Assembly: GCF_028583425.1 (NCBI RefSeq) | Contig: NC_072805.1 | Coordinates: 19,602,001 to 19,666,000 of the forward strand | Length of the DNA: 64,000 bases | Reading direction: 5' to 3' | DNA from: Eublepharis macularius | Lineage: Eukaryota; Chordata; Lepidosauria; Squamata; Eublepharidae | In this document: positions 493 through 64,000 of the stretch, in pieces | Layout: every line of letters begins with the position of its first letter | Numbering within the stretch: position 1 is the first letter of the stretch | The notes under the pieces: generated by a model | Told to the model about the DNA's origin: nothing | Database searches by the model: none | Seen by the model: only the letters and a program-made list of their open reading frames with translations | Program-made: the position numbers and the translations under genes

Positions 493-733
493 TGGTTACC
501 ATCTGCCATACCAATGGAAGGAGGTGACCATGAATAGAAAGCCCTCGGTTGTCTCAGGTACCGTGAAGGCATTTCAGCAAGCATACCATTTTTATTTTGT
601 ATGCATCTCTCACTGACAAAGAAGGGGCACTCGACAGTAGACAGCTTTGGGGCCCAAAGACCTAAGGGGTGTGGTTGTTGTTCACGGCCTCAGAAAGGAG
701 TAGAAAGAAAGAATCACATCTTCTCCTCCACAG

Positions 734-1002
734 GAAGAAGGAGAGACTCAATATTGTCCATATCCACATGAATCTCCTCTGGGCCATCTTCCTCCTTGAT
801 GTCAGCTTCCTCATCGCCGTGCCCCTGTCCTCTACCAACCATGACGTGGCTTGCAAAGCGGGCGCCATGTTCCTGCACTTCGGCCTGCTCGCTTGCCTGA
901 CCTGGATGGGCATAGAGGGTTACAGCCTCTACCGGCTCGTGATCGAGGTTTTCGATTTCTCCACTGCGAACCTCCTCTTCAAGTTATGCCTGGTTGGCTG
1001 GG
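734..1002 (+). CDS. ADGRG1: ADGRG1-like exon, TM2 to TM4 start
   Basis: The acceptor cctccacag precedes 734 and the donor GTAGGT follows 1002. The exon enters in phase 2 and leaves in phase 1. It encodes about 90 residues: TM2, the loop with the conserved Cys (VACKAG), TM3 and the GWG motif of TM4. Confidence 0.88.
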
Positions 1003-1866
1003 GTAGGTGTCTGAGGAGCTTGGGAAGGGCCAACAGAACCACGGAGTAGGGCTCACCCAGTTTGAGGGGAAATGAGTGCATGTTTATGAAGACCGGTAAG
1101 AAGTATAAGCAGGGCTTTTTTTCAGCTGGAACACGGTGGAAAGGAGTTCCGGAACCTCTTGAAAATGGTCACATGGCTGGTGGCCCTGCCCCCTGATCTC
1201 CACACAAAGGGGAGTTTAGTTTGCCCTCCGCGCCGCTTAGCGGTGCTGAGGGCAATCTAAACTCCTCTCCGTCTGGAGATCAGGGGGCGGGGCCACCAGC
1301 CATGTGACCATTTTCTCCAAGGGCAACCCACTGAGTTCCACCACCTCTTTTCCCAGAGAAAAAGCCCTGAGTATAAGGTTCGTGTTGAACGCCCTTAGCC
1401 TGGTTACAGTTGCTGCTGCTCTCTTATATTTATGCTGAGCTGAAGTGTAACAACATGTTTGAAATAGGATTTTCATTTCAGCCCCTGCCCCCACCCAAAT
1501 GAATGCTCAGAGTTTTCTAAGCAGAAACTCTTCTTCAGTGGGAAAGGCGGGTGAGAACAGCCACTGCAAAATAGTTCTGCACTCTTCCAAAGCTATTTAT
1601 CTTTCTCTTGCTCCCTTTCTGAACATGCAATCAGATTTTAAGCTGACTGCAAGATTTATGTCATGTGTATCAATAATGTCTTGGGTTTTTTTTTAATTAG
1701 AAAAATTAAATCCTGTTCCTTGTGCATTATAATCCTAATATTAAAAACATACCAATTACAGTAAAACCCTGTTTATACCCTGCCCAAGAAAATGCCTGCA
1801 AGTGAAACCTGCCAAAAAGCCCTTGCAAATAAACAGCCTCATAACATCTCCAAAAACGTTGTTATT

Positions 1867-1897
<31 letters not shown>

Positions 1898-4800
1898 GCG
1901 TGCTTATATACTCCTCTTCTAGACAGATTAGCGCCCCACTCAGAGTGGTGAACAAGGTCAGTGGTGTTGTTATCCCCACAATACAGCTGGGAAGTTTGGC
2001 CTGAGAGGAGTGGCTTACCCAAGGCCACCTGCTGAGCTCATGGCAGTAGTGAGGTTCAAACCAGCAAAGTGCTGATTCACAACCCAACCACTTAACCCCA
2101 ATACTGCAGCAGCTGCGGCTACAGCTGCTCAGGATGGTGCCTCGCTCATTTCGACAGGGAGCAGCTATAAAGATGGAACAGGCTCTAGCAGATGCCAAGT
2201 TGGCCACCTTAAGCTTTAAGTATTTGCAGGCATGTGGCTTTTGGAATGTAACTCTCTGGTGATTTAGTATTAGTATTGTGTTAGGTGCTACATATCCCTG
2301 AAAACACTATTGGGCTGAATTAGCAACCCTGAGAGCCAAGCTACAAGTGAGGAATGACACTTGCCTGGCAAGTGAACAGACTCACGTGTATTCCTCCCTG
2401 TTCACTTGTGCTCCACTTGATCAAGTGGAGCACAAGTGAATGGCAAGTGAACAGGGAGGAATACACGTAAGTCTGTTCACTTGCCAGGCAAGTGTCATTC
2501 CTCACTTGTAGCTTGGCTCTGAATTAGCAACCCCCCAAAAGAGTACAATTTAGAGAAAAATGGCTCTAGAACCTTTTCTTCTTGGGACATTGTCACCTGC
2601 ATGGTAGTAAACAAGGCTCCTAAAGTATGGCCACTTATCACTTACATTTTACTTTCTGTTTCAAAGGGAAAAAATCACCACCAGCTAGGTAGAAAATAAA
2701 ACCCAAGAAGTCAAGGCGTTTTTGCCATTGGGGTGTTTTTTACCTCATGAATTCATTAGGAAAACACTGTTGCAAGGAACTGTTTTTAAGCTCTCTGGAG
2801 TAATACAAACCTTCATGCCAACCACAAACAAAAACTTTGTGGGACACTTTTGTCCCTAGATACATAGGGTTTTTGGGGGGGGGGGGGGGCGTTGCATCAC
2901 GACGTTTTCTTGGCAGACTTTTTACGGGGTGGTTTTCCATTGCCTTCCCCAGTCATTTACACTTTACCCCCAGGAAACTGGTTACTTGTTTTACTGATCT
3001 TGGAAGGATGGAAGGCTGAGTCAACATTGAGCCGGCTACCTGAACCTGGCTTCCACCAGGATGTGATGCAACATTTCCACACACGCCCCGCCCCGCCCCG
3101 CCACCCATGTGTCAATAATGACTTGGTGCTTGCACAGGGGACTACCTTTACCTTTACATAGGTTTGGGATGGAACTATACCCCGGATGCAGTCTGTGCAA
3201 GTTTTTTCAGCACATGGATATGTGGAAGAGATTATGAACAGTCCTTACTTGGAGTGCTGGTGGCAACTCCATCTGCTGGGGGAAAAAACGGGCAGGGGAA
3301 GAGAGGATGGTGATCAGAAGGGGCCATTGGAGTTACAGGAAAGATGAAGCAGCATAGTTTGTGGGAAGGGAACAGGCGTGGAAGACGGTTTTGAAAGAAG
3401 AGGAAGAAGCCACAATGGACAATGGAGGAAGCTGTTACGGCACTGTAGGAAAACACAAAAATAGCACCCCCTAGTGGACACTGAACGATAATGCAAAAAA
3501 AATTATTTTGTTGCGAATACTAAAATTCTCTGACCTTGATGGCCCAGATTAGCCTGATCTTGTCTCAGAAGCTGAGCAGTGAAAGTTTCTTGCTGTGAAG
3601 ACCTTACAGGGTGACCATAAGTCAGCTGCAAGTTGATGGCATTTTACACTCACTCACTCACTCACTCTAAAAGCAACAACTCTGTCATCTACCTATTTAA
3701 CTGTCCATCCAACTAGTTTGATGCCCAGCATTATTTATTTATTAAGGAGTTCCTCTGCTGTTTTTTCTCCCCAAAGGGGTTTACAGAAATTTCCAAAACA
3801 TAGAGCCAGTGTGGTGTAGTGGTTAGAGTGCCGGACTAGGATCCCGAAGACCCAGGTTCGAATATCCACTCTGTCCTTGAAACTCACTCCGTGACCTTGG
3901 GCCAGTCATTCACTCTCAGCCTAAATTATCGCATGGCTGTTTGTTAGGATAAAACAGCATCAAGGAGAATGATGGAAGCCATTTTGGGTCCACACTGGGG
4001 AGAAAGGCGGGGTATAAATGAAATAAATAAGTCAAACAAAATACTAGATTAATATAATTTAAATGAGCATGACCGTAAGCGAGGCAAACACGTGCTGGGT
4101 GGGTCTTCCTTCCATTGGACCAGCTGTTGTAGTCTTCAGCTTGAAAGCCTCATGCCGAGAGCCCTTGGGAACTCGCCCCTCTGCCTAGGATTACCTGCAC
4201 ACAGGAAGGAAACAGAATCTCTCCTAGATGTTATGCAGCTGGCAAGATTTCCCCAAACCTCTTCTCTCTCTTCCACGTTGCCACTTCAGTGCATTTGGTG
4301 TTTTGAAAGACATTTCTCTGTATGAGAACAATCAAATGCTAGTCAAAGTAGACCACACGATGCGAAATGGACCAACGGGCTCACTTGGTACAAGGCAGCT
4401 TGGAATGTTCAGTCCCGTTGTCCAATTGCTGCAGAAGTCTTTTAAGAACATACAAAGCTGCCTCGTATCGTGTTATGCCATTGGTGCATTTAGCTAAGCG
4501 CTCCATTCTAGGATAGGCAGAGGTGTTCCACAGATCTTTGGACTGAAAGACGTGTAGAATTGTGCCATTGGTGCATTTAGCTAGTTATGCCATTGGTGCA
4601 TTTAGCTAAGCGCTCCATTCTAGGATAGGCAGAGGTGTTCCACAGATCTTTGGACTGAAAGACGTGTAGAATTGTACTCTGCTGCTAAATCATAATCTTA
4701 ATTGTGAATAACACAGAAGACACAGAGGCAAGAAGGGACGGGTTGTCCCTAGAACGAGCACTAGGCAGGCTTTTGGTATAAACATGGAAGCTGTAGCAGA

Positions 4801-7800
4801 ACCATAATGTACTAGGATAAAGGCAGAAAGGCAGAATCTAGCAAGACAGTGCAGAGATCTGGGATAAAAACACTAACTAGTTCGGTGTAGGAGTTAAGAG
4901 CTGCAGGGCTCCAATCTGGAGAACTGAGTTTGATTCCCCACTCCTCCACTTGAAGCCAGCTGGGTGGCCTTGGGTCAGTAGAGTTCCCAGGTTTCTGCCA
5001 TTGGCAGGCAAACTCCTGAAGGTTTGCCTCCTTGCCTGCCGACCCGCCAGTAGTTGGCAGGAGGTGACAAGCTCCCAGAGGTTGCTCACCACCGGCAAGC
5101 ACCTCAGGAATATGCGCCATGCGCACACTCCCCAGGGGTGCAACAACAACACCCCCTGAAGTGACATTGCCATGCCAACTGCGGGAGTGTTCCTGTGCTT
5201 TGTTTGGGGCCGATTTGGGGCCCGAATGGGCCAAATTGGCCCTGCACAGAATGCAGGAGCGCTCCTGTGGCTGTGATAATGTCACTTCTGGAAATGATGA
5301 CATCGCGCAGGTGCCAGAGCACTTGCATAAAGAGGACTTCGTTGCCAGCACGAGGTACATGCCAGGTCCCCCCCTCCTGGCGGGAGGGTATAGGGACCTG
5401 GCAACCCTATGGCTCAGTAACAGTTCTCTCAGAGCTCTCTCAACCCCACTCACCTCACAGGGTGATTGTTGTGAGGATAATAACTAGACATGGGCCCAAA
5501 CCAAAAAAATTACCGCACCAGAGGATCGTGGTTCAGCTCAGACCACAATCCTGAATTCCCGAACAGCAACGACGATCTCCCATTCCTGAACCTGAACCAT
5601 GGCTTGTGGATAGTGGAGGCCACAGCGGAGGGGCGCCTTGCTGTTCCCAGCGATACAGGAACAGTGGGTGATGCCGGCGGCATCTGTGTTTGTGTTTGGC
5701 CATCTGCGTTTGGCCATCAGAGCTGCCTATCAGGGTTTGCAGGATGAGATTGGAGTGCCCATGGCTACAGAACACCCCCTCCCCCCTCCCTCCCCTGGGT
5801 GTCTTCTCCCAACTTGTAACTGCTTTGCTGCTCTGTGGTTGGAAGGAAGCCCTGCTGATCAAGGAAAGCTGGGCTTCCATTCGGGTTTCCAGGGTGACAG
5901 AAGGAGGGCAAACACAGCTCAGGCATTCCTCTGACTCCGTTGCCAGGGGAATAGATTGCTGGCGCCTGAGTGTCTGGATTCCTGAATCGAGCCCGAACGC
6001 CACGATCCAGGCCTCTCCCAGTTGCTGGATTGTTGGCCATGGATGGTCACAATCCACCGGGTCACGATCGTGCGATCACCATTTTCGTGGGTTTTTTACG
6101 TTCGTAACGTGGATTGTGCCCATCTCTAATAATAACAACATACTCTGTAAACTGCTCTGAGTGGGTGTTAAGTTGGCCTCTTCTCTTCCTGCAGGGCTTC
6201 CCATATTCCTTGTGACTGTGGTCTTTGTGGCTGATCAATCAACCTACGGACCCTACTCCATTAAAGTGTATGAGACCTCGGAGAAATACACCAATGCAAC
6301 CATGTAAGTTACTGGTTGGGGCCCATGGGGAGGGTTGCTATGCCATCGCTTCCCTGCAGTGAACTCAGTTCAGGGTTTAGCTTATCTTTGCTCCATATTC
6401 TTCCCTAAATCTGTCCTGTGAAACTCCATTCTGGAAAATAATCCCCCTTGACCCTACTTTGTTCCTGCTAGAATATTAGCTCTTCAGTGGATGAGGCCTA
6501 GGTAAAGAGAATGAATTCTGCACGGATCCTACTGAGGTCAACAGGATTACTCATCATGCTGCATAGACCAGTCTGGACTCAGGCAGTCTCAAAATCGGGC
6601 AGATGAGCGATAAAATCTGTGGCATGTTTTATGTTATCCTCCAGATCTGTAGGCCCAACTGTTCTTCTCTCCCCTGAATCGAGCCACACTCTTTCCCAAC
6701 ATGAGATTGTCAGTCCCAACAAAATGGAAGTTCTAATGGGGGAGGAAAGGTTTGACTCAAGAACTCGATGGGGTTGTCCCCCCTCCTCATGCATCCAGGC
6801 CTCCTGTCAGATAAACAAGTAGTAGCGGTGGCCAGAAGTCACCCGGTGCCGGAAGTCACCCGGTGGCCACCCGGTGATCTAGCAGCCCTTCCAGGACAGG
6901 AAAACCCTGGTGAGTGACCTTGTGCCAGTCACTGTCAGTGTAACCTACCTTACAGGGTTGTTGTGAGGATAAAAATGGAAGAGTGATGTCATTTTTTAAT
7001 TTAATTTAATTTTTATTTGTGCAAAACAAACAAAAAAAGGAAAAACAATGCTGGCAAATCTATACATAAGTTTCTATAAAAGGCCTCCAAATATCTAAAA
7101 GTCCATACACAATTGCAAGTGCCGTCAATATGTGGTATGTTCAAATCTTGGTCCTCAATCCGATGAGTTATAGGAAGTGGGCTTTCACCTTTCCAGTACT
7201 GTAGTATGAGTCTTTTAGCGACTGTAGGGACACAGAGGAGACTGATGTTATAAGCCAATTTGTGTCCCCATTATGGAAAAAAGCAAGATATAAATATCTA
7301 AATAACCATTTATGTTAAGTTGGACATCCATTAAGAAATCTCTAGTCTAGATTTCCTGCATCAAGCAGTAGGTTGGACTAGATGGCCTTTGTGGCACCCT
7401 TCCAACTCTATTTTATTTTGTACATTTTTACAGTGAGCCTAGGAAAGCCGTTAATTTATTATCACCTCTCCCCTGTTTTATCCTCACAACAATCCTGCGA
7501 GGGAGGTTAGGCTAAAAGAAAATGACGGGCCACTGGTCACTCTGCCAATCTTTCATGGCGGAGTGGAGATTTTGAATCAAGGTCTCACAGATTCTCATCC
7601 AACTCACGACACCCTCCTGGTCTGTGTCTCTCTCTCTGATCATAGTTTCCGTGTTGCGTCTATAAGAAAAAAACAATGCAAAATCCAAAAACCGTGCACA
7701 AAAGGACATCTCAGGAGAAGGATTTCTTTGAAGATGAGAAATCTGGGATGTGTGGAGGGAGGCACTTCTCATCACAGATTCACACCCTTAATTTTTTCCC

Positions 7801-9963
7801 CCTTTCTAGCTGTTGGATAACAAAGAGGCATATTAACAGCATCCTGAATTTGGGATTTCTAAGCTTGGTGATCCTCTTCAACAGCATCATGCTGGCTGCT
7901 ATGGTGCGAAAAATCCTCAAACTCAAACACCGGGATTACCACAGGTGGCAATATGCGGTGATGCTCCTGGGGCTGAGTTGTGCGCTGGGCATCCCCTGGG
8001 GCTTGGCCTTTTTCTCGTTCACGTTTGGAACCTTCCAACTTGCTGCGCTCTACCTCTTCACCATCCTCAACTCCTTCCAAGGTTAGTGAGCTTGGGTCCC
8101 TTCCCTTCTTCCCCTGCCACTTTCGCATCCTTTCCCCCTTGAATTTTCAGCTTGCAACTTTCCCAGTATCGGAGTGTGAGAATAAGGAAGGGAGGATCTA
8201 TAAATTGCTTTCTTTTGCCTGTTGACATTCCTGGGTTCGGTTCCAGGCTCCCCATGTGGAGCTTTTCACAAAATGTCTAAAATAGAATTGATTAAGAACT
8301 CTTTTTTAAATAAAAGAAAAAGGATTAGAGAAGGAGGATTAACAGAGGGCACTGCCTGAAAAATGCAGGCCGTTCCCTCTGTCCCCTTGTACTGTTGGAT
8401 GCAGGGCTCATTTTGAGGGGGAACATGCAGGAATGCAGTTCTGGCAGTTCTCCAAAAAGGTCACATGTCAGGTGGCCCCGCCCACCTGATTTTTGGCCAT
8501 TGGGGAGCCGTTTCACCCAATTTGGGCCCAAAATGGCCAGAATCAGGACCCAAACAGCCAGGATTGGTCCCGAAACAGCCAGGATTGGGCCTCTGATGGG
8601 TGGTGGATCACTCTACCGCTCAGCAGCGGCCTGATCCTGACCATTTTGGGCTCCTTTTCGGCCATTTTCAGCCCCTTTTTGCCATTTTGGGCCCAATTTC
8701 GGCCCTGAATGGCCAGGATTGGGTCCAAAACAGCCAAGATAGGTGATGCCAGGGGGTGGGGCACATGCAAATCAGTTATGCTAATGATACGCTTCTGATG
8801 CTGGCAAGGGGCGTGGCATATGCAAATGAGTTGTGCTAATGAGTTCCTGCAGCTCTTTTTCTACGAAATGACCCCTGTTACAAGAGGGGGGGGCACAAGA
8901 CTCTCAGGGGAGGAGTTCAAGGAGACATGCTGGATTACCTGCCCTATCACCAGCTTTCCTGCCCACCCCCATCTGTACCTCCCCAGTTTCTCTGCGATGA
9001 GCTCCTCAACAGACTTCCCCAGTATATTTTTTTCGAAGTTTCAGATTTTTCTGCAAACCTGTTTGGTTCCTCAAGTTTGCAGAAACATCTGGTCTGCAGC
9101 AAGTAACAAATTATGTGGCTTCATTTTAAAATAAGCGAATGTAGTCTCTTTAGTGATGATATAAGGAAAAGGGCATATCTTTGCCACAGAAGGGGCTAGG
9201 GACGTAATTTTTTTTTAGAAATGAAAGCTGGAAAATGCACAGAACCCATTGCAATGGTATAACAATATTTTAGTGCCATCATTTAAAAAAAATGCAATCG
9301 CTGTGGTGGTCTGTGGGGGGGGGCACAGTGGGGGGACTGGCCAGGGAAACCCGCCATGTGGATCCCCATTGTCCTTCTCCTTTATCAGTAGCTGCACCAG
9401 CAGTTGGGAAAACCACACAAGCCCATCCCAGTGTGGAAACCATTCAAATTAGTTGGGGGGGGGACACTTCTCAAGAAGCTAAGCCTCCCTCCACCCAGGG
9501 CCAAGCTACAAGTGATGAATGACACTTGAACAGCAAGTGAACGGCAAGTGATCATGTAGTGATCAAGTGGAGCACAAGTGAACAGGGAGGAATACATGTG
9601 AGTCTGTTCACTTGCCGTTCAAGTGTCATTCGTCACTTGTAGCTTGGCTCCCAGTCGGTTTCTCGTACATCTTAGGCCTTGGACAGTCTGGGACTGTCAA
9701 AGTAGAGAAGTGACTAAACTGCGCTCCACCAGTAGGTGGCTGTGGGGTGTATCCAAACCCAGTACATTGGGGTCCCCCCAGCCTTTTCATCATTCCCTTT
9801 GACTGCTGCTTATCATCCAACTCCCCCTTTCCCTTCTCTTTCCACAGGATTCCTCATCTTCCTTTGGTACTTGGCAAAGAGAGTGCAGGCTCGCCGGACT
9901 GCCTCAGAGCAGTTCATCTCTACGAACAGCGCAAAGCTACATTCCAGCAGCAGCGTTCTGTGA
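734..9963 (+). CDS. ADGRG1: Adhesion GPCR, ADGRG1/GPR56-like (3' part of gene)
   Basis: Four exons join in frame: 734-1002, 6195-6303, 7810-8081 and 9848-9963. They encode the seven-TM region from just before TM2 to the stop. Visible landmarks are HMNLLWAIFLLD (TM2), FLHFGLLACLTWMGIEGYSLYRLV (TM3, split here: FLHFGLLACL then TWMGIEGYSLYRLV), GWGLPIFLV (TM4), CWI in extracellular loop 2, LLGLSCALGIPWGLAFFSF (TM6), and SFQGFLIFLWY (TM7), followed by a Ser-rich tail ending SSSSVL. From memory of the family, the TM2-TM3 block, the YGP loop, the GTFQL-LYLF stretch and the Ser-rich end resemble human GPR56 more than GPR97 or GPR114. The family self-cleaves at a GAIN domain and couples to G12/13; that domain, TM1 and the N-terminus lie before the window. 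A tandem paralogue (ADGRG3/ADGRG5) is not excluded. Confidence 0.85.
1110..1369. mobile_element. hAT MITE, family H1
   Basis: Inverted ends CAGGGCTTTTTTTC / AAAAAGCCCTG enclose a self-complementary body. The 8-bp duplication agtataag is exact (1102-1109, 1370-1377). Confidence 0.85.
1867..1897. repeat. (TAG)n microsatellite
   Basis: About ten tandem TAG/GTA units. Confidence 0.95.
1898..2095 (-). mobile_element. tRNA-derived SINE
   Basis: The reverse strand carries a B-box-like 'ggtttgaacc' and a 'taagtggttgggt' A-box-like region. It resembles 34895-35118. Confidence 0.55.
2330..2518. mobile_element. PIF/Harbinger-like foldback MITE
   Basis: Near-perfect palindrome with ends AGCCAAGCTACAAGTGA / TCACTTGTAGCTTGGCT. 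CTGAG/CTGAA flanks it; a 15-bp direct repeat ctgaattagcaaccc also lies at 2315-2329 and 2519-2533. Confidence 0.7.
2873..3160. mobile_element. tRNA-derived SINE pieces in opposite orientation
   Basis: 2885-3075 is the reverse complement of the SINE body seen at 36465. 3095-3160 is its 3' end in forward orientation (gtcaataatgacttggtgct). A poly-G run lies at 2875-2889. Confidence 0.55.
3527..3670 (+). mobile_element. 5S rRNA-derived SINE
   Basis: 'gcccagattagcctgatctt' and 'cagaagctgagcag' follow the 5S internal promoter pattern. The body ends 'ccataagtcagctgcaagtt' and a CACT run. Confidence 0.6.
3801..4040 (+). mobile_element. tRNA-derived SINE
   Basis: A box 'tggtgtagtggttagagtg' and B box 'ggttcgaatatcc', with an A-rich tail 'aaataaataag'. 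Confidence 0.7.
4472..4674. repeat. 112-bp tandem duplication
   Basis: Unit 4472-4583 is followed by a second copy from 4584 that looks identical over about 90 bp. Confidence 0.9.
4979..5409. mobile_element. hAT MITE (TAGGGTTGCCA type)
   Basis: Ends TAGAGTTCCCAGG / CCTGGCAACCCTA. Flanks tgggtcag/tggctcag match at 7 of 8. Confidence 0.75.
5485..6128. mobile_element. hAT MITE (TAGAGATGGGC type)
   Basis: Ends TAGACATGGGC / GCCCATCTCTA. Exact 8-bp duplication ataataac at 5477-5484 and 6129-6136. Confidence 0.85.
6195..6303 (+). CDS. ADGRG1: ADGRG1-like exon, TM4 and ECL2
   Basis: The acceptor cttcctgcag precedes the exon and the donor GTAAGT follows it. It encodes LPIFLVTVVFVADQSTYGPY and the rest of extracellular loop 2, with an N-glycosylation sequon NAT at its end. 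Phase 1 in, phase 2 out. Confidence 0.88.
7013..7258 (-). mobile_element. L1-type LINE ORF2 C-terminal fragment
   Basis: The reverse strand reads VAKRLILQYWKGESPLPITH, like the AKRLI-WK end of L1 ORF2. Only the last 80 or so codons remain. Confidence 0.6.
7430..7620 (-). mobile_element. tRNA-derived SINE
   Basis: Reverse of a SINE body: 'cctgttttatcctcacaaca' and 'ggcggagtggagattttgaatcaa' (B-box-like on the minus strand). Confidence 0.5.
7810..8081 (+). CDS. ADGRG1: ADGRG1-like exon, TM5 to TM7
   Basis: The acceptor ccctttctag precedes the exon and the donor GTTAGT follows it. It opens with the ECL2 cysteine (CWI) that normally bonds to TM3. It then encodes TM5, a basic third intracellular loop (RKILKLKHRDYHRW), TM6 and most of TM7. 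Confidence 0.88.
8402..8877 (+). mobile_element. hAT MITE, family H2
   Basis: Starts CAGGGCTCATTTTGAGG and ends CTACGAAATGACCCCTG. No matching duplication is seen at this copy. Confidence 0.7.
9499..9649. mobile_element. PIF/Harbinger-like foldback MITE
   Basis: Ends GGCCAAGCTACAAGTGA / TCACTTGTAGCTTGGCT. Exact flanks cccag. Confidence 0.75.
9848..9963 (+). CDS. ADGRG1: ADGRG1-like last coding exon
   Basis: The acceptor tctttccacag precedes the exon. It encodes the end of TM7 (GFLIFLWYLAKR) and a 27-residue cytoplasmic tail rich in Ser and Thr, then TGA at 9961-9963. Confidence 0.88.
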
Positions 9964-13895: not shown

Positions 13896-13987
13896 TCATT
13901 TCTTCATGGCTTTGGCTACAGCAATCAAAATTATGGCAATACCGATGCCTGCTGAAACTACTGCACTGGGGATCCATAGCTGTAGTT
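13896..13987 (-). CDS. ZPD: ZPD exon 8, transmembrane tail
   Basis: Encodes WIPSAVVSAGIGIAIILIAV, a hydrophobic helix, then KAMKK and the stop at 13896-13898. Confidence 0.83.
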
Positions 13988-16900
13988 CTAGAGAGAGAAA
14001 AAGATGGACATCTGTGTAGTTTTCAAGGGAGGGGCACCCAGAGACAGGACCCCAGGCTATTTCATACATGGTAGGTAGCATCCGAACTGGGGGAAAGTGT
14101 ACATACCCCACAGAGACTCTTGGCGTTTCTTAGACACAGTGTTCTGTGCTTCCAAGGATGTCGGGGCCTGGAGGCGAATGGGTCCGTAGGAGACTATCTT
14201 GCTGTAGTCATCATCCATTGCTCTTTTGCGTTTCGACTTAGTAGGACATTGCTGCAAGCAACAGCAAAAAAGTATCAACGCTCGTTTCCGTTGGGCAGTG
14301 CATAAAGGAGGCATCATCTTAACAGTAGTTTTCCCTGTATCATCCACTTCTTGGAAAAAATACAGCGGCCAGCTACAGGAAATCTAAAGGTGGGCAAGTC
14401 TGTGCTTTGGAAGACCATTGATTTGTTTTAGAAACTTTATGAGAATAAAACTTGACTCCAGTCGCACCTTAAATTCCAACAAAATTTTCCAAGGTGTATA
14501 TTATGTTTCAGGCTACCACCCACCCCAAAATATAAGATTATGAATAGCAACACAAGCCAGGACATAAAAGTATAAAATATTCAGCAGCCTAAAACAGCAC
14601 CCAGGTTAGAAGCATACCATAAAAATAGCTTTATTTATTTATTTAATTCGATTTATATTCCGTCCTCCCCGCATTAGCAGGCTCGGGGTAGAAAGATGGA
14701 AATATTTTAAAAGATGGAACCCCTTAGTTAAAAGCATGGGTTTTAAAAAAATGTTTTGACCTAGTAGATAAAGGACAGTAACTTAAGCATTCCAAAGATA
14801 AGGTGAAACCAACCGCTGCAAAACCCTGGTTTTTGTTGCCACCCCGATCCTATCTACAAGTGAGGACAGGAAAGCAGAGCTTGGAGAAGAATTTTAACTT
14901 GCAGTCTGGGCCAGTACAGAAGGAAGCAGCCCTTCAAATACCTACAGTCTCTCTACACGACATCTTACGCTGGACGCTCAAGTGACTTACTTTCTGTGTG
15001 GTCTTATATTCGAGTGTGCTCTGTCTCCCTAGCAGTGCATGTGTAGCCGCAATGGGAGAACAAGTGTAAGAGCTTTCACTTGAGCATCCCCTTGTAAGAT
15101 GTCTTAGAGAAATAATAAAGAGTCCAGTGGCACCTTTTAAGACTAACCAACTTTATTGTAGCATAACCTTTCGAGAACCACCGCTCTCTTTGTCAGATGC
15201 ATCTGACGAAGAGAGCTGTGGCTCTCAAAAGCTTATGCTACAATAAAGTTGGTTAGTCTTAAAGGTGCCACTGGACTCTTTACTGTTTTGCTGCTACAGA
15301 CTAACACGGCTAACTCCTCTGGATCTTGTGTAGAGAAGCTCTTAGTTTTTGCTTTCCCCCAAAGCTTAGGAAGTGGTAAGATGGACTCAAAGACAGATAC
15401 CTGAGAGTGATTCTTTAACCCTTTCCTCTTATCCCTTTTTGAACACCCCCAAGCTGTTTTCTCCTGCAGGAGGGCTGGATCCACCCAAGGGTGGGTTGGT
15501 GGGAAAGCCATTGCCTGCTCTTCTCCCCACAGGGAGATGGGAAGATGCTGGGGGTGTCTCTGAGGGCTGGCACTCGCTATGGCAGCCCCTGACTCTTTTG
15601 GTTCGGCAGAGCGGCAATAGGCGCGCCTACCCCTCTGGCATCCCAGCCAATTTCCTAGATGAACTTAGTATACAGATCAGCCCTTGGGGAGGGGGGGGGT
15701 AGGAAATACAGGCTCTCTATGAGCCGAGCTACAAGTAACGCCTGACACAGGTTGGACACTTGTCAGCTTCCCTCAAGTTTTGATGGGAAATGTAGGCATC
15801 CTGGTCTTGCAGCTTGGCTCTCCATTTAATTGAAGTTTACAGAGCAACAGTCTATGGGAGGGAGAACATGCAGTCATCCTGGTCTTACAGGCGTTGGGCT
15901 CTTGCTGGGTGCCCCCTTCCTCTCCGCTGTGTGTGTGTGGGGGGGGGGGGGTCTGTAAGCTTCAATTAAATGGAGAGCCAAGCTGTAAGACCAGGATGAC
16001 TACATTTCCCACCAAAACTTGAGGGAAGCTGACATGTAGGCATCCTGGTCTTACAGCTTGGCTCTCCATTTAATTGAAGTTTACAGAAAACCACACACAC
16101 ACACACAGCAGAGGGGAAGGGGGGCGCCCGGCAAGAGCCCAACGCCTGCAATCCCCTCCCAACCGCATGTTCTCCCTCCCATAGACTGTTGCTCTGTAAA
16201 CTTCAATTAAATGGAGAGCCTAGCTGCAAGACCAGGACACCTACATTTCAAAACTTGAGGGAAGCTGACAAGTATCCCACCTGTGTCAGGCGTCACTTGT
16301 AGCTTGGCTCTATATCCTCCCACTCTTTTTTTGCAGGTGTAACAGCAATTTGCCAACGGTGATTGAGCTGAAAAACAACTTGGGGGGAGGGAAACTGATT
16401 GACTGATTGATTCCCCAGTCCATTCACACGCAAAGTCTTTCTCCCTTCTAATTATTTTTAAAAAGACGAAGAATGTCTTAGAACTTTGCATCATGTGTCA
16501 TTTGAGCTGCAGATCCACACCGCCCCCTCACAACAAGACAGAAGTCGCAAGAGACCGTACCTTAGCACATGGCTCCTGGTTTTCTGGAACACACAGGCGC
16601 ACGTTGCAGTGGAGGAACACCTCCGTGAAGTTTTTGAACTGGAACATCTGAAAACTGAACTTTGCCACAGTGCTGGTGCCAATGAGATTGAGGAAGGTCA
16701 CGGTCTTGTCGTGGGGACACCTGGAAGGGGCCAAAGTTCATCACCGGTCCAGTCAGTGCTGAAAATGCATTGTTCACAACACAGACCCAGAGCAGCAAGA
16801 CAGGACAGGCTTTGGTTTAAATATTAAAACTTAATGCTGCATAGCCTGAAGCATACAATATGAGTGGTATCCCTTTAGACAAAATGGCCACTGTTTTCAC

Positions 16901-19900
16901 CCCTGGTTGCAGAATACATATCGAAAAGCATAACCAGGGCTTTTTTTCTGGGAAAAGAGGTGGTGGAACTCAATGGTGGAACTCAGGACTGCACAATGAC
17001 GTCACTTTGGGTCAGCTGGAACAAGGGGGGAGTTGTTTAAAGTTTAAATCGCCCTCGGCGAAAATGGTCACATGGCCAGTGGCCCTGCCCCCTGATCTCC
17101 AGACAGGGGGGAGTTTAGATTGCCCTCTGCACCGCTCCAGCAGTGAGGAGGGCAATCAACTCCCCTCTGTCTGGAAATCAGGGGGCGGGGCCACCAGCCA
17201 TGTGACCATTTTCAAGAGGTTCCAGAACTCCGTTCCACCGCGTTCCAGCTGAAAAAAAGCCCTGGAAAAGCATAACATTGACTACAAGCCTGACCATTTA
17301 CAGAGTCTGTACACGTGGGTACAAAGCATGAAAGGCATTTGCAAGATTAAAAGATTTTGCCCACAAAATGGGCGGGTGGAACTTTTTACCCTGTCTCATT
17401 AAAATGGGATGGTGTTGCCAGGTTGAGATTAAAAAATGGCTTCAGCAGCTGGTTTCAGCTGGGTCACCATCCCTACATTTAAGCCTTTTCTAATCTTTTC
17501 TCCTCAGTGCTGAAAATCAACACTCACTAAAAGTTCCTTGGGGAAAAAAGATCAAGGCAATTTGACAAACGAAATTCAGCAAGCGTATTTTCGGCTATAC
17601 CCCGTATCTAAAAACCACTTGACTTTACCATAATGAAGAGGACAGGAAATACGCAAACACAGACACAATACACTTTCTTGTCAGTCCTTTCCCAGTTTGC
17701 TTCCCCCCTTTCTAAACATCTTGCACTGTTTTTCTCCCTCTGCCAAGAACAACCTTCCATTCTCTGTTAAGTGTTTTGTTGATGTTTTAGATCTCCTTCA
17801 ACAATTTCCTTTCTGGAAATTTCTTGGCCTGTTCCTCCCACAGGCACCTGCAGAGTGCTAACCCAACGCCACAAACCACCCATGGGGAAGAAATTTTATT
17901 TAGTGCCTGCCAGAGCTGTGAATCATTTATTTTTCTTACTTCATCTATACTCTGCCTTTCTCCCTAGGGGGCTTCCAAAGTGACTTACATCCTTCCCCTT
18001 GCCTCCATTTTGTTTTCATAAGAACCCTGTGAGGTAGGGTCTGGCTGAGAATGTACGACTGGCCCAAGGTCATCCAAGCTTCCATGGCAAAGTGGGGATT
18101 CAAACCTGACAGTCTAACCGTTACACTGTGTGGTGAACACCACAAAATGGCAGAAGATGGCCATTTCCACATGGCTTACCTTGTTCCAGAAAACAGCGAA
18201 ATCTCACACGAAGACGCTGTTATTGCACGAAATCGCAAGAGAAGACGCGATAACAGTGTCTTCTCATGCGATTTCGCTGTTTTCCGAAACAAGGTAAGCT
18301 GTGTGGAAAAGGCCAATGCCCCCCCAAAACAGATGTTACCATAAGCCTCTTCCATAGCCCAAACTCTACTCATACGCTGATGTGCTGGCATTAGAATCTG
18401 AGGTAAACCCAAAACAAGACATTTTATTTTTGTTATTATATTTGCCAAAGACTAAAATACATTGATTTTTACATTTCCACCCCCCTTTTGTGGATGAATA
18501 GGTCCGCTGTACACTGAAAGCAGTAGCTATGGTGGATTGTCCCCAAATATGTTGAGCCTGGGCATACTGACCGAATTATAACAACAGGTAGTGGGTATTA
18601 CCACAAAAATACTTTGTGTCTGTGTGTCTGCACACAGCCAACCACAAAATGGCAATCATGGAGACTAGGGAAAGTCACAAAAAGTTGTAAAGCTCCAAGC
18701 CAAGCGTCCTCCTACAATGGAGGCAGTTTCTGACTGGTGATCCCTGACAGCAAAGCTACAAGTGATGAATTACACGTGCCTGGCAAGTGAACAGACTCAG
18801 GGCCAAGCTACAAGTGACGAATGACACTTGAACGGCAAGTGTATTTCTCCCTGTTCACTTGCCCCCCACTCGATCCACTTGCCATTCAAGTGTCATTCGT
18901 CACTTGTAGCTTGGCCCTGAGATGTATTCCTCCTTGTTCACTTGCCATTCACTTGCGCTCCACTTGATCAGGTGGAGTGCAAGTGAATGGCAAGTGAACC
19001 GGGAGGAATACATGTGAGTCTGTTCACTTGCCATGCAAGTGTAATTTGTCACTTGTAGCTTGACTCTGAGAACACAAAGATGACACCTGGTTTCTTCTGA
19101 AGCATCTTCTGCTCCAGTGAGGTAGAGGAAAGCCAGGGTTGTATCTTTCCTTCGGAGTGAAAACATTTGGGGGGAAAGGAAGTGGGTGCTGGGAAACACA
19201 TTAGCAGGCAAGATGGTAAAGATCGCTGAACTCTTGAATGCAAATTACTCCTCTAGGACCAGCAGAAGAAGCCACTTGGCCCAGTGAGGGCCACACCTGG
19301 TCTCCCACCATCACCAAAACCCATCACAGATAATCATGGGTCAGTGGTCACACCAGTGCCTGAAACCAGAAGCTGCCCAACCTGGGGAAAAAAAAGGCTG
19401 CTGCACTCACCCTTTCATAATCAGATGGTGCTTTAGGCTGTGGCTTGGGTCCCTCACAGGAGTGCCCCAGCAGTCCTCCATGCTCAGGAAGAAGTACTTC
19501 ACCAGCTGCTGCCCTTCAATTTGCAGAAGGACGTAAAGGGTATCCGTCAGCAGGAGGGAAAGCAACTGCTGCGGGGAATAGGCTCGATCGTAGCTGGAAC
19601 TGTCATACAGCTTCATGGTCACTGTGAAGTCCCCTTCCTTCACTGCAAACTGCGCAAGCCTAGGAGAGAAGGAGCCACGGGATCAACCGGGAATGCACAA
19701 GGACAGGAAGGTGGCCTCCATATCCATGACCCAATTCTATGCAATTATCCACATGCATCTGGTCATTTTAAGTGGAGATGCTAGGAGTTGAACCTGGGGC
19801 TTTCTGTATGCAAAGCTCTATCACAGAGCCATGTCCCTTCCCATGATGAACTTAACATGTGGCTATGAGTAGGTAGCAAATCCCCACCCATCACCCCCTG

Positions 19901-22900
19901 AAGACAATCTGTTATTGTAGCGATGCCTAGTCCCTCCTGCAACTAGGAGAGAGTGAGGGGTGGCAGGTACTTACCCATGTGTGCCCGCATCAGTCGCCTA
20001 TGATGTCACTTCTGGGGCAACCTGGAAGTGATGGCATCATGCCAGGGCTGATTCCTTAACACTTGGCCTAAAACCGAGTGTTTTCACTATGCTTGGGGTC
20101 AAGTTTTAAAGAGTTGACCCTGGCATGATGCTGTCACTTCTGGGACACACTGGAAATGATGTCATTGTCCGAGGACATGTACATGCCCATTTCACTTCCC
20201 TGACTCCTGACCTGCCTCCTCCCACCAATTAGCTGGTAGAGGTTTCAGTCGGTGGGAGATTGCCTGCCATTGGCAGGTACCTGGCAAGGCTATGTTATTG
20301 CAAACACTGAGTAAGTTGGCTTCCTCAAGGTGGCAGGTCATGTTGTTTCTGTATTGCTGGTGCAGTTGCCAGTACAGCACAACGGCAATGGAGCTTCATT
20401 GTGACAGATTTTCTTACAGTTTCTCCACCTCAGTCCCCCAACAGCAGCTCTCCCCTTTCCCCAGTGCCACTGATGCTTTTCCATTTTTTTAAAAAAACAT
20501 TCAATTAAATATTGTTTTATTTATATCACATTACAGCAATCTGTGTGCCAAGTTTTTTGAAATTCCAGATTTCTTATTTTTTTTTAAGTCTTTAGCACTT
20601 TTCGTTGTGAAGGTATGCCTTTCCCCTTATATATCCGCAATGAAAGGGGCTAGAGATATACTTAAAAACAAACTGGAAATTCAGAGAACCTGTATGCAGA
20701 TTGTTACAACATCATATCAATATAACAATATTGAATTGCCAGTCAGGAAAAACAAAAAGCACCCCAGTGGTAGGGTATGAAATAGTTACTGCAGGGACAG
20801 TGTCAGGGAAAATGGCTGTCATATGGGTGGGATAACTGAACTTTCCCACCCACTTGGCAACCATCCAGGCTTTACGGCAATCTTTCCCAAAACTTTGGAG
20901 CAAAGCAAGTTTGAGAAAGATTGGAGAAAAGCTGGGAAAGCCCCAGGAAATACACAAACATACCACAATGCTGTGACAAATCAGGAAAAAATCCCACTAC
21001 TCAACAGTAGAGATGGACACAAACCACAATATGAACCAAAGTTCATCATGAACCAGGCTGGTTTGTGGTTTGCAAACCAGTGGTTCGTCAGAGCCCATTC
21101 CTGATGAACTGCCACGAACCTTTAGGGCAGTTCATTTGCTTTGTTTTTTGGTTCATCACTGCAGACAGCCTGGTGCCAATCAAACAGTTTCCTAGGCAAC
21201 GGGGGTTGGGCTTTCTGCAGACCGTATGCTGACCTGGAAGTGGTGATTTGTTGTCCTGGAAGTGATGTTTTCACGAACCAAAAACGAACTGGTTCGTGAA
21301 CAGGGGCAAGTTTGTGAAAGTTCGTGGTTCGTGAAACATAATGAACCACGAACCGCATGGTTCTTTTTTTCCTGGTTCATGCCCATCTCTATTCAACAGC
21401 ACTGAACCAGGGACAGGTAATCCATGTGAAAGTGGCTCCATCAAATACTTTCCTCTTCAAAGATCCCTACATCTGAGTTAACATAAAGAAGGGGGAGGGG
21501 GGTGTACAAAGCAACAGCTACCCTTTTCCTAGTCCAATTTGTAACTTGGAAAGACAGAGGATGAAGAACATACGTGTCCACAGCTCTGAGTGGGTGGAGC
21601 AAACCAACAACACGTGTGTAGGCATAGTTGCAGGAGAAGCGCACATTAAGAACCACAGTCCTTGTGATCACACCGTCCTCCTCTCTGTCCGTCTGAATCT
21701 CATTGACGTAAGACACATGAGAGCCATTGACCTGGAAGCGAGCCAGAAAATTGGATTCGTCTTTTAAGACATGTACATGTAAGTTGCAACAGGTTCTTCA
21801 TCCCTGGTACATCATGGATGCCTGTTTTCACACAGTATACCCCAGCTACACATTTTTTAATAAGGTGAAGAGTTAACGAAGAATAATATTTTAACAAAAA
21901 TGGAAAAGCTACAGTGGCAACATAGAGAAACAAGCAATGAGTTTATGATGTCACCCGTTCCTGCCAATAGGTGTCTTCTCTACAGGGATCTTCCATGAAA
22001 GCTTCAACACTTGGAGGGTATTTCACAAGTATGACAATCCCTTTCCTGTGGGTCAGACTTAGACTTTCTCTACACAAGACATCTTACACAGGAACACTCA
22101 AGTGACGTACTTACTGTATGGTCTTATATTCAAGTGTGCTCTGTCTCCCTAGCGGTGCATGCGTATCCACAATGGGAGAACAAGTGTAAGAGCTTTCACT
22201 TGATCCTACTCATGTAGGAGCAAGATGTCTTGTGTACAGAGACTCTCCGTTTAACAGTGGATCCAGAGGAGTCAGCCGTGTTAGTCTGTAGTTGCAAAAT
22301 AGTAAAGAGTCCAGTAGCACCTTTAAGACAAACCAACTTTATTGTAGCATAAGCTTTCAAGAACCACAGCTCTCTTCATCAGATATCTGACGAAGAGAGC
22401 TGTGGTTCTCAAAAGCTTATGCTACAATAAAGTTGGTTAGTCTTAAAGGTGCTATTGGACTCTTTTCAGTTTAACAGTAACATCTATCTAGCATCCATTT
22501 AGCAATGCATTTCGGTGCGGCCCGTCAGAGGATAATCCCTCCATCCCCCAGCTATCAGGAATATCTTTCCCAAAACTTTAGAGCAAAGCAAGTTTGAGAA
22601 AAATTGGAGAAAAGCTGGGGAAGTCCCAGGAGGTACACGAAGATACCACCATGCTGTGAGGGAGGCTGTTTCAGAACATTACCTGAATCTGAGATCCACA
22701 TGCCGTGTGATTCTCCTTAGTCAGCTTTGCTCCAAAGAACACGGCACCGCCTTCCTCTAGCTCAGAGACTTTGCAGTTGCTGTTCTTCAGGTGGACCAGG
22801 GCCAAGGGGATCTTGACCATTTCAAAGACTTCCTTTCTCACCATCATCCTCATGAACTCTTCCTTGCATTGCAGATCCACCACCATTTCTGGTGGGAGAC

Positions 22901-24349
22901 AAGAAGTTTGCAATAACTGAAAACAAAAGGGCTAGCTATTGATCGCCAATTTTTTCCTAGGGAAGAGAGAGTGTGAGTGTATGTGTGTGGGCTATGTTAA
23001 ACACAGAATGCTGTTTAAAAAACCAAACTTAAGCCCTCTCAGCAATTACTTTAAGAGGTACCTTTGATCTATCAAGTTCAGTTCTTTGTAGCAAAATCTC
23101 ATTTGTTCTCAGCCCCAACCCTACGGAATCGTCTTCTGGATGAGATCCATATATCTGTTCCTGAATGAATCCTCATTTTGTTTGTTGACAGCACAGAGGG
23201 AAAGACTTTAATTACTGCTTTTCTTTTTTGCAGGAAAAGTGAGTGCATGTTAATTTTCTTTTTATTGTCATTGTGAAATTATAGTCACAGAAACATACGA
23301 TTAGATGAATGGCCAATATCTTTTAACTGCAAAGGGGAAAGCTGTAGCCTGCTAGTCTTTTGCAAACTTTAGAAGTTTGCTGTTTTGCAGAGGGAATGCC
23401 TAGCAAGATGCTCTTCGAGTACGATGCTGGACTAAGAGACTCCAGAACCCTGGGGCAACTGGATTTTATGGCTGTCATTTCTTAGGCTGGATTGCAATTG
23501 GATTTTAATTGTGGTGCTGTGACACTCAAATTAAGCAAGGAGGTAGAACATATATTTTTAAGCAGAAGCAGGTGGTCAAAATCCCTCAGGTGGGGAGTGT
23601 GTGTTAGAGCCTGTCTCCATTCAAGTGGGGCAATGGTAAGTTCCCCAAAGGGCCTGGCAACTGCCCCATGTGAACTTGACTGCCCTAGAATCCCTCCATG
23701 CTGCAGAGAATTCTGGGACAGTAAAATCATGGCACAGAGTTCTCCAAAATTTGATTGCTGTTGAGTTAATACAGAACTCCTTCAGGAGACTGGGAAAGCC
23801 CGCGTGTAGGCCTCGGAGATGCTGTCGCAATGCAGACCCGCTCTACCTTTGCAGAATGCTCCTGTGAATCCCGGCTTACAGGCACAACTTGGGCTGCCTT
23901 CGACGACACTACAGACACCCTGGTACCAGCATGGGCTTGGAAAGCAAGGTCCCGGGGTCCTCGGAGTCTGCAGGACCCCTTCTTCTGTCGTGCTCTGAGT
24001 CTCCATCAACTGACCTAGAGCAGAAAGAATCAGGCCATTGCTCAAAAGCAGAGAAAATCGCTTGCTTTCATCCCTCACCCAAACCACAAGTTGTGTTTGC
24101 TCTTCCCTCACCACCACTGGACAAATCCAGAAGATGCTATTTGGGATTGAGCGATTTCCCCTGCCCTGTGTCTGTACCCCTTTCATTGTGTCCCCCAGCA
24201 GTTGTTCAAGTTGCCTTGTTGGAGCCCCCCCCCACCCTTTGCCCCTGTATAGCAGCTTCCTGAACTCCAGGAGAGCAACTGGAAAACTCACCAGGACAAT
24301 TTCTCACACCTGCCAGTAACAACACCAGAATCAGCAGCGAGGAGTTCAT
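13896..24349 (-). CDS. ZPD: ZP-domain egg-coat protein with EGF-like domain, probably ZPD
   Basis: Eight exons on the minus strand join with matching phases: 24292-24349, 23847-24014, 22683-22888, 21574-21731, 19411-19659, 16561-16720, 14107-14251 and 13896-13987. The product is 411 residues. In order it has a signal peptide (1-20), an EGF-like domain (about residues 40-75, six Cys), ZP-N (about 77-190, four Cys), ZP-C (about 198-345), a basic furin-type site KSKRKR, and a C-terminal TM helix with a short KAMKK tail. ZP modules polymerise into extracellular filaments once the C-terminal propeptide is cut. Length, architecture and a place beside DRC7 fit ZPD of birds and amphibians (recalled, not searched); chicken ZPD is recalled to lie on the chromosome matching human 16q. 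Uromodulin/OIT3-type relatives also pair EGF with ZP, so the symbol is less certain than the family. All reading frames are intact. Confidence 0.85.
14107..14251 (-). CDS. ZPD: ZPD exon 7, cleavage site
   Basis: Opens with QCPTKSKRKRAMDDD. The KRKR run is the consensus cleavage site that frees mature ZP proteins from their membrane anchor. The linker up to the TM segment follows. Confidence 0.83.
14946..15345. repeat. Family D foldback MITE split by a family P repeat
   Basis: The left part begins AGTCTCTCTACACGACATC and reaches about 15107. The right end 'cttgtgtagagaagct' resumes after about 15325. Confidence 0.55.
15108..15327. repeat. Palindromic repeat, family P
   Basis: Inverted arms meet at cagatgcatctgacg; the right arm ends 'ggctaactcctctggatc'. 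Confidence 0.65.
15722..16309. mobile_element. Long PIF/Harbinger-like palindrome
   Basis: A 588-bp foldback with the AGCCNAGCTACAAGTNACG end and arms carrying extra sequence ('gcaacagtctatgggaggga' and its inverse). Flanks ctatg/ctata. A poly-G and CA/GT run lies inside. Confidence 0.7.
16561..16720 (-). CDS. ZPD: ZPD exon 6, ZP-C core
   Basis: Encodes GCPHDKTVTFLN, then FSFQMFQFKNFTEVFLHC and VRLCVPENQEPCAK. The F-F-aromatic pattern before the HC motif and the following clustered cysteines are diagnostic of ZP-C. Confidence 0.87.
16935..17264. mobile_element. hAT MITE, family H1, in a ZPD intron
   Basis: Complete CAGGGC ends. The flanking direct repeat gaaaagcataac is 12 bp (16923-16934, 17265-17276), longer than the usual 8. 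Confidence 0.8.
17935..18140 (-). mobile_element. tRNA-derived SINE
   Basis: Reverse B box 'ggggattcaaacctgaca' and reverse A box 'aaccgttacactgtgtgg'. Confidence 0.6.
18159..18314. mobile_element. CpG-rich foldback MITE, family C
   Basis: Ends GGCCATTTCCACATGGCTTACC-type and inverse (GGTAAGCTGTGTGGAAAAGGCC-type). Flanks gat/aat. Confidence 0.6.
18749..19065. mobile_element. PIF/Harbinger-like MITE with a nested copy
   Basis: The outer copy has ends AGCAAAGCTACAAGTGA / TCACTTGTAGCTTGACT and flanks ctgac/ctgag. The inner copy 18801-18916 is flanked by ctcag/ctgag. Confidence 0.7.
19411..19659 (-). CDS. ZPD: ZPD exon 5, start of ZP-C
   Basis: Encodes LAQFAVKEGDFTVTMKLYD and on to LYVLLQIEGQQLVKYFFLSMEDCWGTP, the typical ZP-C beta-strand with the 'EDCWATP'-like motif. 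Donor GTGAGT. Confidence 0.87.
20888..20980 (+). repeat. Dispersed repeat, also at 22565-22660
   Basis: 'aagcaagtttgagaaa' and 'ttggagaaaagctggg' recur in order at both sites with scattered differences. Not classified. Confidence 0.6.
21008..21391. mobile_element. hAT MITE (TAGAGATGGGC type)
   Basis: Ends TAGAGATGGACACAAACC / GGTTCATGCCCATCTCTA. Flanks ctcaacag/ttcaacag. Many inverted 'ggttcgtg' motifs inside. Confidence 0.75.
21574..21731 (-). CDS. ZPD: ZPD exon 4, second half of ZP-N
   Basis: Encodes VNGSHVSYVNEIQT, then TVVLNVRFSCNYAY with the fourth ZP-N Cys. The acceptor is cttccag and the donor GTATGT. One sequon, NGS. Confidence 0.85.
22067..22246. repeat. Family D foldback MITE
   Basis: TCTACACAAGACATCTTACA at the left is inverted at the right (aagatgtcttgtgtacagag). 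Confidence 0.6.
22259..22468. repeat. Palindromic repeat, family P
   Basis: Exact 10-bp duplication gtttaacagt at 22249-22258 and 22469-22478. Arms meet at cagatatctgacg. Confidence 0.7.
22683..22888 (-). CDS. ZPD: ZPD exon 3, first half of ZP-N
   Basis: The acceptor ttgtctcccaccag is chosen over the one 28 bp upstream because only it keeps the frame from the phase-1 exon 2. The exon encodes VVDLQCKEEFMRMMVRKE and on to a sequon NHT and GSQIQ, with three of the four ZP-N cysteines. Confidence 0.83.
23847..24014 (-). CDS. ZPD: ZPD exon 2, EGF-like domain
   Basis: A 55-residue exon flanked by phase-1 introns. It contains CFPSPCWYQGVC then CACKPGFTGAFC, the six-Cys EGF pattern with the typical CxCxxGFxGxxC end. 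Symmetric phase-1 borders are usual for shuffled EGF exons. Confidence 0.85.
24292..24349 (-). CDS. ZPD: ZPD exon 1, signal peptide
   Basis: The ATG at 24347-24349 starts a hydrophobic signal peptide (MNSSLLILVLLLAGVRNC). The donor GTGAGT follows. The bases before ATG read like a splice acceptor (tgttgtttcag ending at 24359), so an upstream noncoding exon is possible. Confidence 0.8.
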
Positions 24350-38139: not shown

Positions 38140-38487
38140 ATCTTAAAGTAGAAGACATCTTGATGTTGCTTAATTCAAAAGCACAAAAATCTTCGCTGCC
38201 TCCTGAGCTTATCTCTGCGATACATTATCAACATTTTTCAATTCTGGGAGAGGGTGGTGGTGGTAGTTGTAATTATATCAATATTCTGATGCTTTTGAAA
38301 CCTTGTCTTTTGTCGAAGCTGCAAGTCTTCCACTGATTATTGTTTTGCAAAACTCTGACTTGTCCCCTAACGTGACTTTTAGTTTTTTGAAGGGAATGAC
38401 AGTAAACTTTTTCTAAAAGAAGTAATTGCTTTGAATTGCTCTTTGTTCTTAAACCACCCTGTTCCTCTACAGCTCCACAGCAGCAGA

Positions 38488-38663
38488 ATGGAAAGCAGCA
38501 GCAGAATAGAAAGCAAGGAGCAGAAAATCCTTGAGAAACTGGAGGAAGAAGAGGAAGAAGAGGAAGAGGAAGAAGAACTTAGTTCCTTTAATCTCAAGGA
38601 AGAGGTCCACGACTTGGAGGACAAATTGTCACAGATCCAAGTCCACATTCCTGAAGTTGTCTA
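38488..38663 (+). CDS. DRC7: DRC7 first coding exon
   Basis: The ATG has a good context (A at -3, G at +4). An acceptor cctctacag ends at 38472, so the exon starts upstream of the ATG. It encodes a 13-Glu acidic run and a coiled-coil stretch, [17 protein letters not shown]. Donor GTAAGG, phase 2 out. Confidence 0.88.
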
Positions 38664-62879: not shown

Positions 62880-63214
62880 GTAAGTTGGCATCCTGGTTAA
62901 GAGGCTGAGGTACAAAGCCAGGAGACCCCCATTCATAGCTTTATCCCTGCCAAGAACTTACTACGTGACCTTCGTCAAGCCTCTTTATCTCTGTTTCAAT
63001 CCTCATACTGCAACAGACAATATTCCAAGGACTGCAGCAAGATAATATATGTAAAGGAGTTTTGAATATTTGACATTATATTAATGCTAATTTATTTTTA
63101 TCTTTAAAAGAGAAAGGTATGTCCAGACCTTCTCATCCTGTTTAATTTCTCATCTGTCTCTCTGTAGCTGATTCGCACGTAACAAGTCCTCGTGGCCACC
63201 AGAAGTGTTTCATC

Positions 63215-63433
63215 TATGGTTGCCAGCTCCAGGTTGGGAAATTCCTGGAGATTTTTGGGTTGGGGCCAGAAGAGAGCGGGGTTTGGGGAGGGGAGGGGCC
63301 TCAACAGGGTATAATTCCATAGAGTCCACCCTCCAAAGTAGCCATTTTCTCCAGGGGAACTGATCTCTGTTGGCTGGAAATAAGTTGTAATTCTGGGAGA
63401 TCTCCAGCCACCACCTGGAGGCTGGCAACCCTA
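63215..63433. mobile_element. hAT MITE (TAGGGTTGCCA type)
   Basis: TATGGTTGCCAGCTCCAGG start and CCTGGAGGCTGGCAACCCTA end. Exact 8-bp duplication gtttcatc (63207-63214, 63434-63441). Confidence 0.85.
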
Positions 63434-63621
63434 GTTTCATCAGATGTATTCTTGGAGTTCTGTGCTTGGAACTTAACTAACAGGCGTGCATGGGCCCATT
63501 TCAAATGAGGACAGTGCCACATGATGAGAGGAGGGCTTAATCCTTCCCCACACACTGTTTTCCTAACCTGAAATAGCCCCAGGAAACCATCTTTTATCCT
63601 GTTGGGGAAATTTACGTATAG

Positions 63622-63623
<2 letters not shown>

Positions 63624-63673
<50 letters not shown>

Positions 63674-63674
63674 T
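63624..63674. repeat. (ATT)n microsatellite
   Basis: About 16 ATT units. Confidence 0.95.
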
Positions 63675-64000
63675 CAATTTATAAACCGCCCACCCTCAGG
63701 GGCTCTGGGCGGTGAACAACAGTTAAAATCAATAAAAACAAGAAAACAATAATTATAAAATCAACATACAATAAGCAATAATAAAATAAATTAACTAAAT
63801 ACATTAAGGTGCAATGGTGGGGAGAACCCTCCCCCACCCCAAAGGTGGGAGGCCGACATGGCACCGCCCCCTTCAACCACCGAACGCCTGGCAGAACAGC
63901 TTTGTCTTACAGGCCTGGTGGAACGATAATATGTCCCGCTGGGCCTGGGTCTCTCCATTGACAGAGCCTTCCACCAGGCTGGGGCCAGGACTGAAAAGGC
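63675..64000 (-). mobile_element. LINE 3' end (L2/CR1-like), cut by the window
   Basis: The minus strand reads AFSVLAPAWWKALSMER-like coding from the right edge, then UTR with 'tttataaaccgcccaccctc' on the plus strand. Confidence 0.5.

Follow-up and report, generated by a model that had tools for sequence, protein, structure and literature searches.

An intact ZPD orthologue between ADGRG1 and DRC7 in the genome of Eublepharis macularius

A stretch of 64,000 nucleotides from Eublepharis macularius (hereafter "the window"; positions C16:19602001-19666000 of the 2.24-Gb genome of 72 contigs searched here) contains the 3' part of ADGRG1, a complete gene of the ZP family, identified below as ZPD, and the 5' and middle part of DRC7 (Table 1). 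The ZP gene occupies the minus strand from 24349 to 13896, where eight exons join into one reading frame; exon borders were set by eye on the sequence and the resulting splice model was then checked by script. The coding sequence of 1236 nt encodes 411 amino acids plus a stop codon and has no internal stops, introns run from GT to AG in 7/7 cases, and the junction phases are, in order, 1,1,0,2,2,0,1. A second AG lies upstream of the acceptor of exon 3, and with it the frame stays closed. The initial annotation had described eight consistently phased exons encoding 411 residues, and the span it gave (13896..24349) is exact for the coding sequence; its "eight junctions", on the other hand, must be read as seven, as there are eight exons.

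Table 1. Positions of genes, exons and a polyadenylation-like signal within the window
Feature	Position	Strand	Remarks
ADGRG1, 3' part	732..9960	+	gene begins before the window
AATAAA, polyadenylation-like signal	13872-13867	-	shortly 3' of the ZPD stop codon
ZPD exon 8	13987-13896	-	transmembrane segment, short basic tail, stop
ZPD exon 7	14251-14107	-	last cysteine of the ZP module, putative basic cleavage site, SKIVSYGPIRL segment
ZPD exon 6	16720-16561	-	second part of ZP-C
ZPD exon 5	19659-19411	-	linker and first part of ZP-C
ZPD exon 4	21731-21574	-	second part of ZP-N and start of interdomain linker
ZPD exon 3	22888-22683	-	first part of ZP-N
ZPD exon 2	24014-23847	-	EGF-like domain, cysteines within residues 43-74
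ZPD exon 1	24349-24292	-	start codon and hydrophobic leader (predicted signal peptide)
DRC7, 5' and middle part	38383..64000	+	first match in ORF 38383-38661

Both neighbors were compared with known proteins as joined open-frame pieces rather than as full splice models. The left neighbor scored 258 bits against ADGRG1, as compared to 153 bits against ADGRG5 and 104 bits against ADGRG3, and the latter two were thus rejected as candidates; matches to the 7TM exons of ADGRG1 were found at about 732-1007, 6188-6313, 7796-8092 and 9781-9960, the last exon ending at about 9960. The right neighbor matched DRC7 with 600 bits (chain 8j07_7), and, as the matches stop at residue 585 of 874, DRC7 extends past the end of the window. 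Since both neighbors are encoded on the plus strand and the ZP gene on the minus strand, ADGRG1 and the ZP gene are arranged tail to tail and the ZP gene and DRC7 head to head; the initially proposed placement between ADGRG1 and DRC7 on the opposite strand is thus borne out.

When the genome was searched with the 7TM part of ADGRG1, no further receptor and no ADGRG3-like gene came up between ADGRG1 and DRC7. In human, ADGRG3 presumably sits between these two genes. The sole other match of this search on C16 was a second ADGRG-type locus approx. 480 kb upstream of ADGRG1 (C16:19122000-19128500; L035/L037), where one exon scored 97 bits against ADGRG1, 85 bits against ADGRG5 and 72 bits against ADGRG3, i.e., values that give no clear assignment. 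The presence of ADGRG1, 3 and 5 has been described as unstable in amphibians and reptiles (PMC8584163, in the part accessible).

Repeats are found within and beyond the ZP gene. Its introns carry, between 15076 and 22472, 21 inverted-repeat pairs with arms of 30-130 nt that are 73-96% complementary. These include a hairpin element present in two related copies, at 15136-15263 and at 22297-22472, and the inverted repeats look like short mobile elements. The open frame at 31883-32377 resembles by eye the GIY-YIG endonuclease region found in Penelope-like elements, and none (0/4) of the four transposon-like open frames of the window, including this one, had a Pfam match. Directly past a DRC7 exon lies a 28/84-nt tandem array (51636-52018), adjacent to a (GATG)n array (52084-52213).

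The predicted protein combines a hydrophobic N-terminus, an EGF-like domain, a ZP module and a membrane anchor. Pfam searches identified a ZP-N domain at residues 83-180 (48.7 bits; cut-off 24.7) and a ZP-C domain at residues 205-331 (98.7 bits; cut-off 24.6). EGF scored 20.8 bits, slightly below the cut-off of 21.5, and the six cysteines of this domain are part of the 16 that the protein has in common with chicken ZPD (see below). A basic stretch, K-S-K-R-K-R, is present at residues 338-343, and the strict R-x-[KR]-R motif is found nowhere in the protein; the SKIVSYGPIRL segment right after the basic stretch aligns, in a PDB match, with the post-cleavage segment of uromodulin. A C-terminal hydrophobic segment was detected in windows 383-410, ahead of the basic tail. 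The layout of EGF-like, ZP-N and ZP-C domains and C-terminal membrane anchor is that of ZPD, and agrees with the order of EGF, ZP, cleavage site and transmembrane segment given in the initial annotation.

When the protein was compared against the PDB, 70 distinct sequences matched at E <= 1, and the best 60 of these 70 were listed. The top match was 28yj chain A (404 bits, E 3.6e-120), and, as this protein was sequenced independently, a chance match is excluded. The next among the matches listed were uromodulin chains (103 bits) and GP2 (93 bits); a ZP2 chain scored 38.6 bits, and no OIT3 entry was present among the best 60 of 70. The PDB name of 28YJ is "Uromodulin", which, taken at face value, would favor a uromodulin/GP2-type epithelial gene of kidney or gut rather than an egg-coat gene. 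Likewise, a ZP module preceded by an EGF-like domain is common to the window protein, ZPD, uromodulin and GP2, and deep trees of ZP genes place ZPD together with uromodulin-like, tectorin and GP2 genes (PMC6262864, in the part accessible). The label is nevertheless no strike against ZPD, because the accessible part of the depositing paper identifies 28YJ as the chicken ZPD egg-coat filament (PMC13124595). Chicken ZPD, a protein of the avian inner perivitelline layer, has the same EGF, ZP-N and ZP-C domains, and is identical to the window protein at 180/307 aligned residues (58.6%), with residues 1-30 and 339-411 of the latter falling outside the match. All 16 aligned cysteines (16/16) are common to the two proteins, including 10 within the ZP module, and sequons occur in matching columns in 2/3 cases; the differences in the compared part amount to ordinary sequence divergence. 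Uromodulin and GP2, in contrast, reach just about 100 bits despite their similar domain order. These two proteins are GPI-anchored and have additional N-terminal domains. ZP1-ZP4 and ZPAX have the ZP module in common with the window protein, in which Pfam found neither a trefoil nor a second ZP-N domain.

A genome search with PF00100 yielded at least 34 ZP-C exon matches, two of them within the window. A tree was built from 16 ZP-C exon sequences (83 columns), including one other ZPD and 12 exons from the E. macularius genome that were hand-picked from the 32 matches outside the window and hand-cut to their open part; omitted were the near copies L007 and L013, L008 with its four stops, L009, L016, L020 and 14 matches without a locus. 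With this short one-exon alignment, 7/13 inner branches were left open; the window gene and chicken ZPD pair at 96/98, separate from uromodulin, GP2 and the 12 other exons of this genome, whereas exons on C2, C14 and C15 fall beside uromodulin and GP2, weakly, at 39/36. Given this pairing and the difference in bit scores, identity with uromodulin or GP2 was rejected, and we regard an epithelial gene of this type as very improbable. Separately, a run of ZP-C exon matches spans approx. 466 kb on C6 (86720736-87186460; L010-L013 and L020), and the three C6 exons in the tree cluster together at 97/95, away from ZPD; this run points to a family of other ZP genes arranged in tandem.

A search of the whole genome with the assembled protein gave 17 exon-level matches, eight of which are the window's own exons. 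The remaining nine score <=29.6 bits; for comparison, the short exon 1 of the window gene itself reaches just 29.2 bits. No second ZPD copy was found in the 2.24-Gb genome among the best 47 candidates scored. The initial annotation had named two results that would speak against ZPD, i.e., best hits to uromodulin/OIT3-type proteins or a ZPD gene elsewhere in the same genome; neither was obtained among the 60 PDB matches listed and the 47 genome candidates scored, respectively. Overall, the ZPD reading is strongly supported by sequence comparison, and the window gene is an intact ZPD orthologue, a member of a known family with nothing unexpected about it. It could also be imagined that a ZPD gene with an intact frame has taken on another role, or has fallen into disuse, in this lineage; against this scenario, which we hardly expect to be true, stand the eight intact exons with their GT-AG introns, the fully conserved aligned cysteines and the level of identity to the chicken protein, which together suggest continued constraint on the gene.

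ZPD is an established egg-coat protein of birds and frogs, and much of its evolutionary history has been published. In the accessible part of Feng et al. 2018 (PMC6262864), ZPD is one of eight egg-coat subfamilies and clusters separately from the others, is reported from three vertebrate lineages in the main survey and shows conserved synteny (Fig. S2A), and a second tree in the same paper places Xenopus ZPD in a clade with "uromodulin-like" genes of reptiles, teleosts and cartilaginous fishes. According to two reviews, in the parts accessible, ZPD was lost in mammals (PMC13361971, PMC8005149); the latter also recounts a 2008 survey that found ZPD in amphibians only, a statement that does not fit the chicken protein. 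Among the literature matches listed, none described ZPD synteny with the neighbors found here; PMC6500517, in its accessible part, has ZPD and GPR56 (=ADGRG1) in separate expression tables, and counts Xenopus zpd with the genes whose ovarian expression increases at meiosis onset. None of the lizard or snake papers listed dealt with ZPD. Conserved ZPD synteny and mammalian loss are thus already in the literature.

ZP proteins in general are made as precursors that are cut and then polymerize. The basic site, the uromodulin-like segment that follows it and the membrane anchor of the window protein fit such a precursor. Avian ZPD has been described as a product of granulosa cells that is loosely bound to the egg coat (PMC8508634), and in chicken, ZPD builds its own filament, in which ZP-N and ZP-C domains interlock (PMC13124595; both in the parts accessible). 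By analogy with the chicken protein, granulosa cells of the ovary would make the E. macularius protein as a membrane-anchored precursor, which would be cut at the basic site ahead of the transmembrane segment; this cut would free a hydrophobic segment that restrains assembly. Head-to-tail interlocking of ZP-N with ZP-C would then yield a homopolymeric, uncrosslinked filament, attached loosely to the egg coat. Any role of the protein in sperm activation would be similarly putative. Taken as a whole, an intact ZPD orthologue, whose product would be made, cut and assembled as in chicken, is almost certainly the best explanation for this locus.

If birds, turtles and frogs had the same gene order, one could locate the ancestral site of ZPD precisely and trace its decay in monotremes, marsupials and placentals, and a local rearrangement of the ADGRG cluster might be tied to the loss; we consider this extended scenario unlikely. 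Knowledge of the egg coat is not altered by the gene described here. As ZPD sequences are filed as "Uromodulin" (28YJ) or, in turkey, go under the name "GP2" (PMC8508634, in the part accessible), a complete ZPD gene model is of use for annotation, and, together with its neighbors, provides a starting point for tracing the loss of ZPD in mammals.
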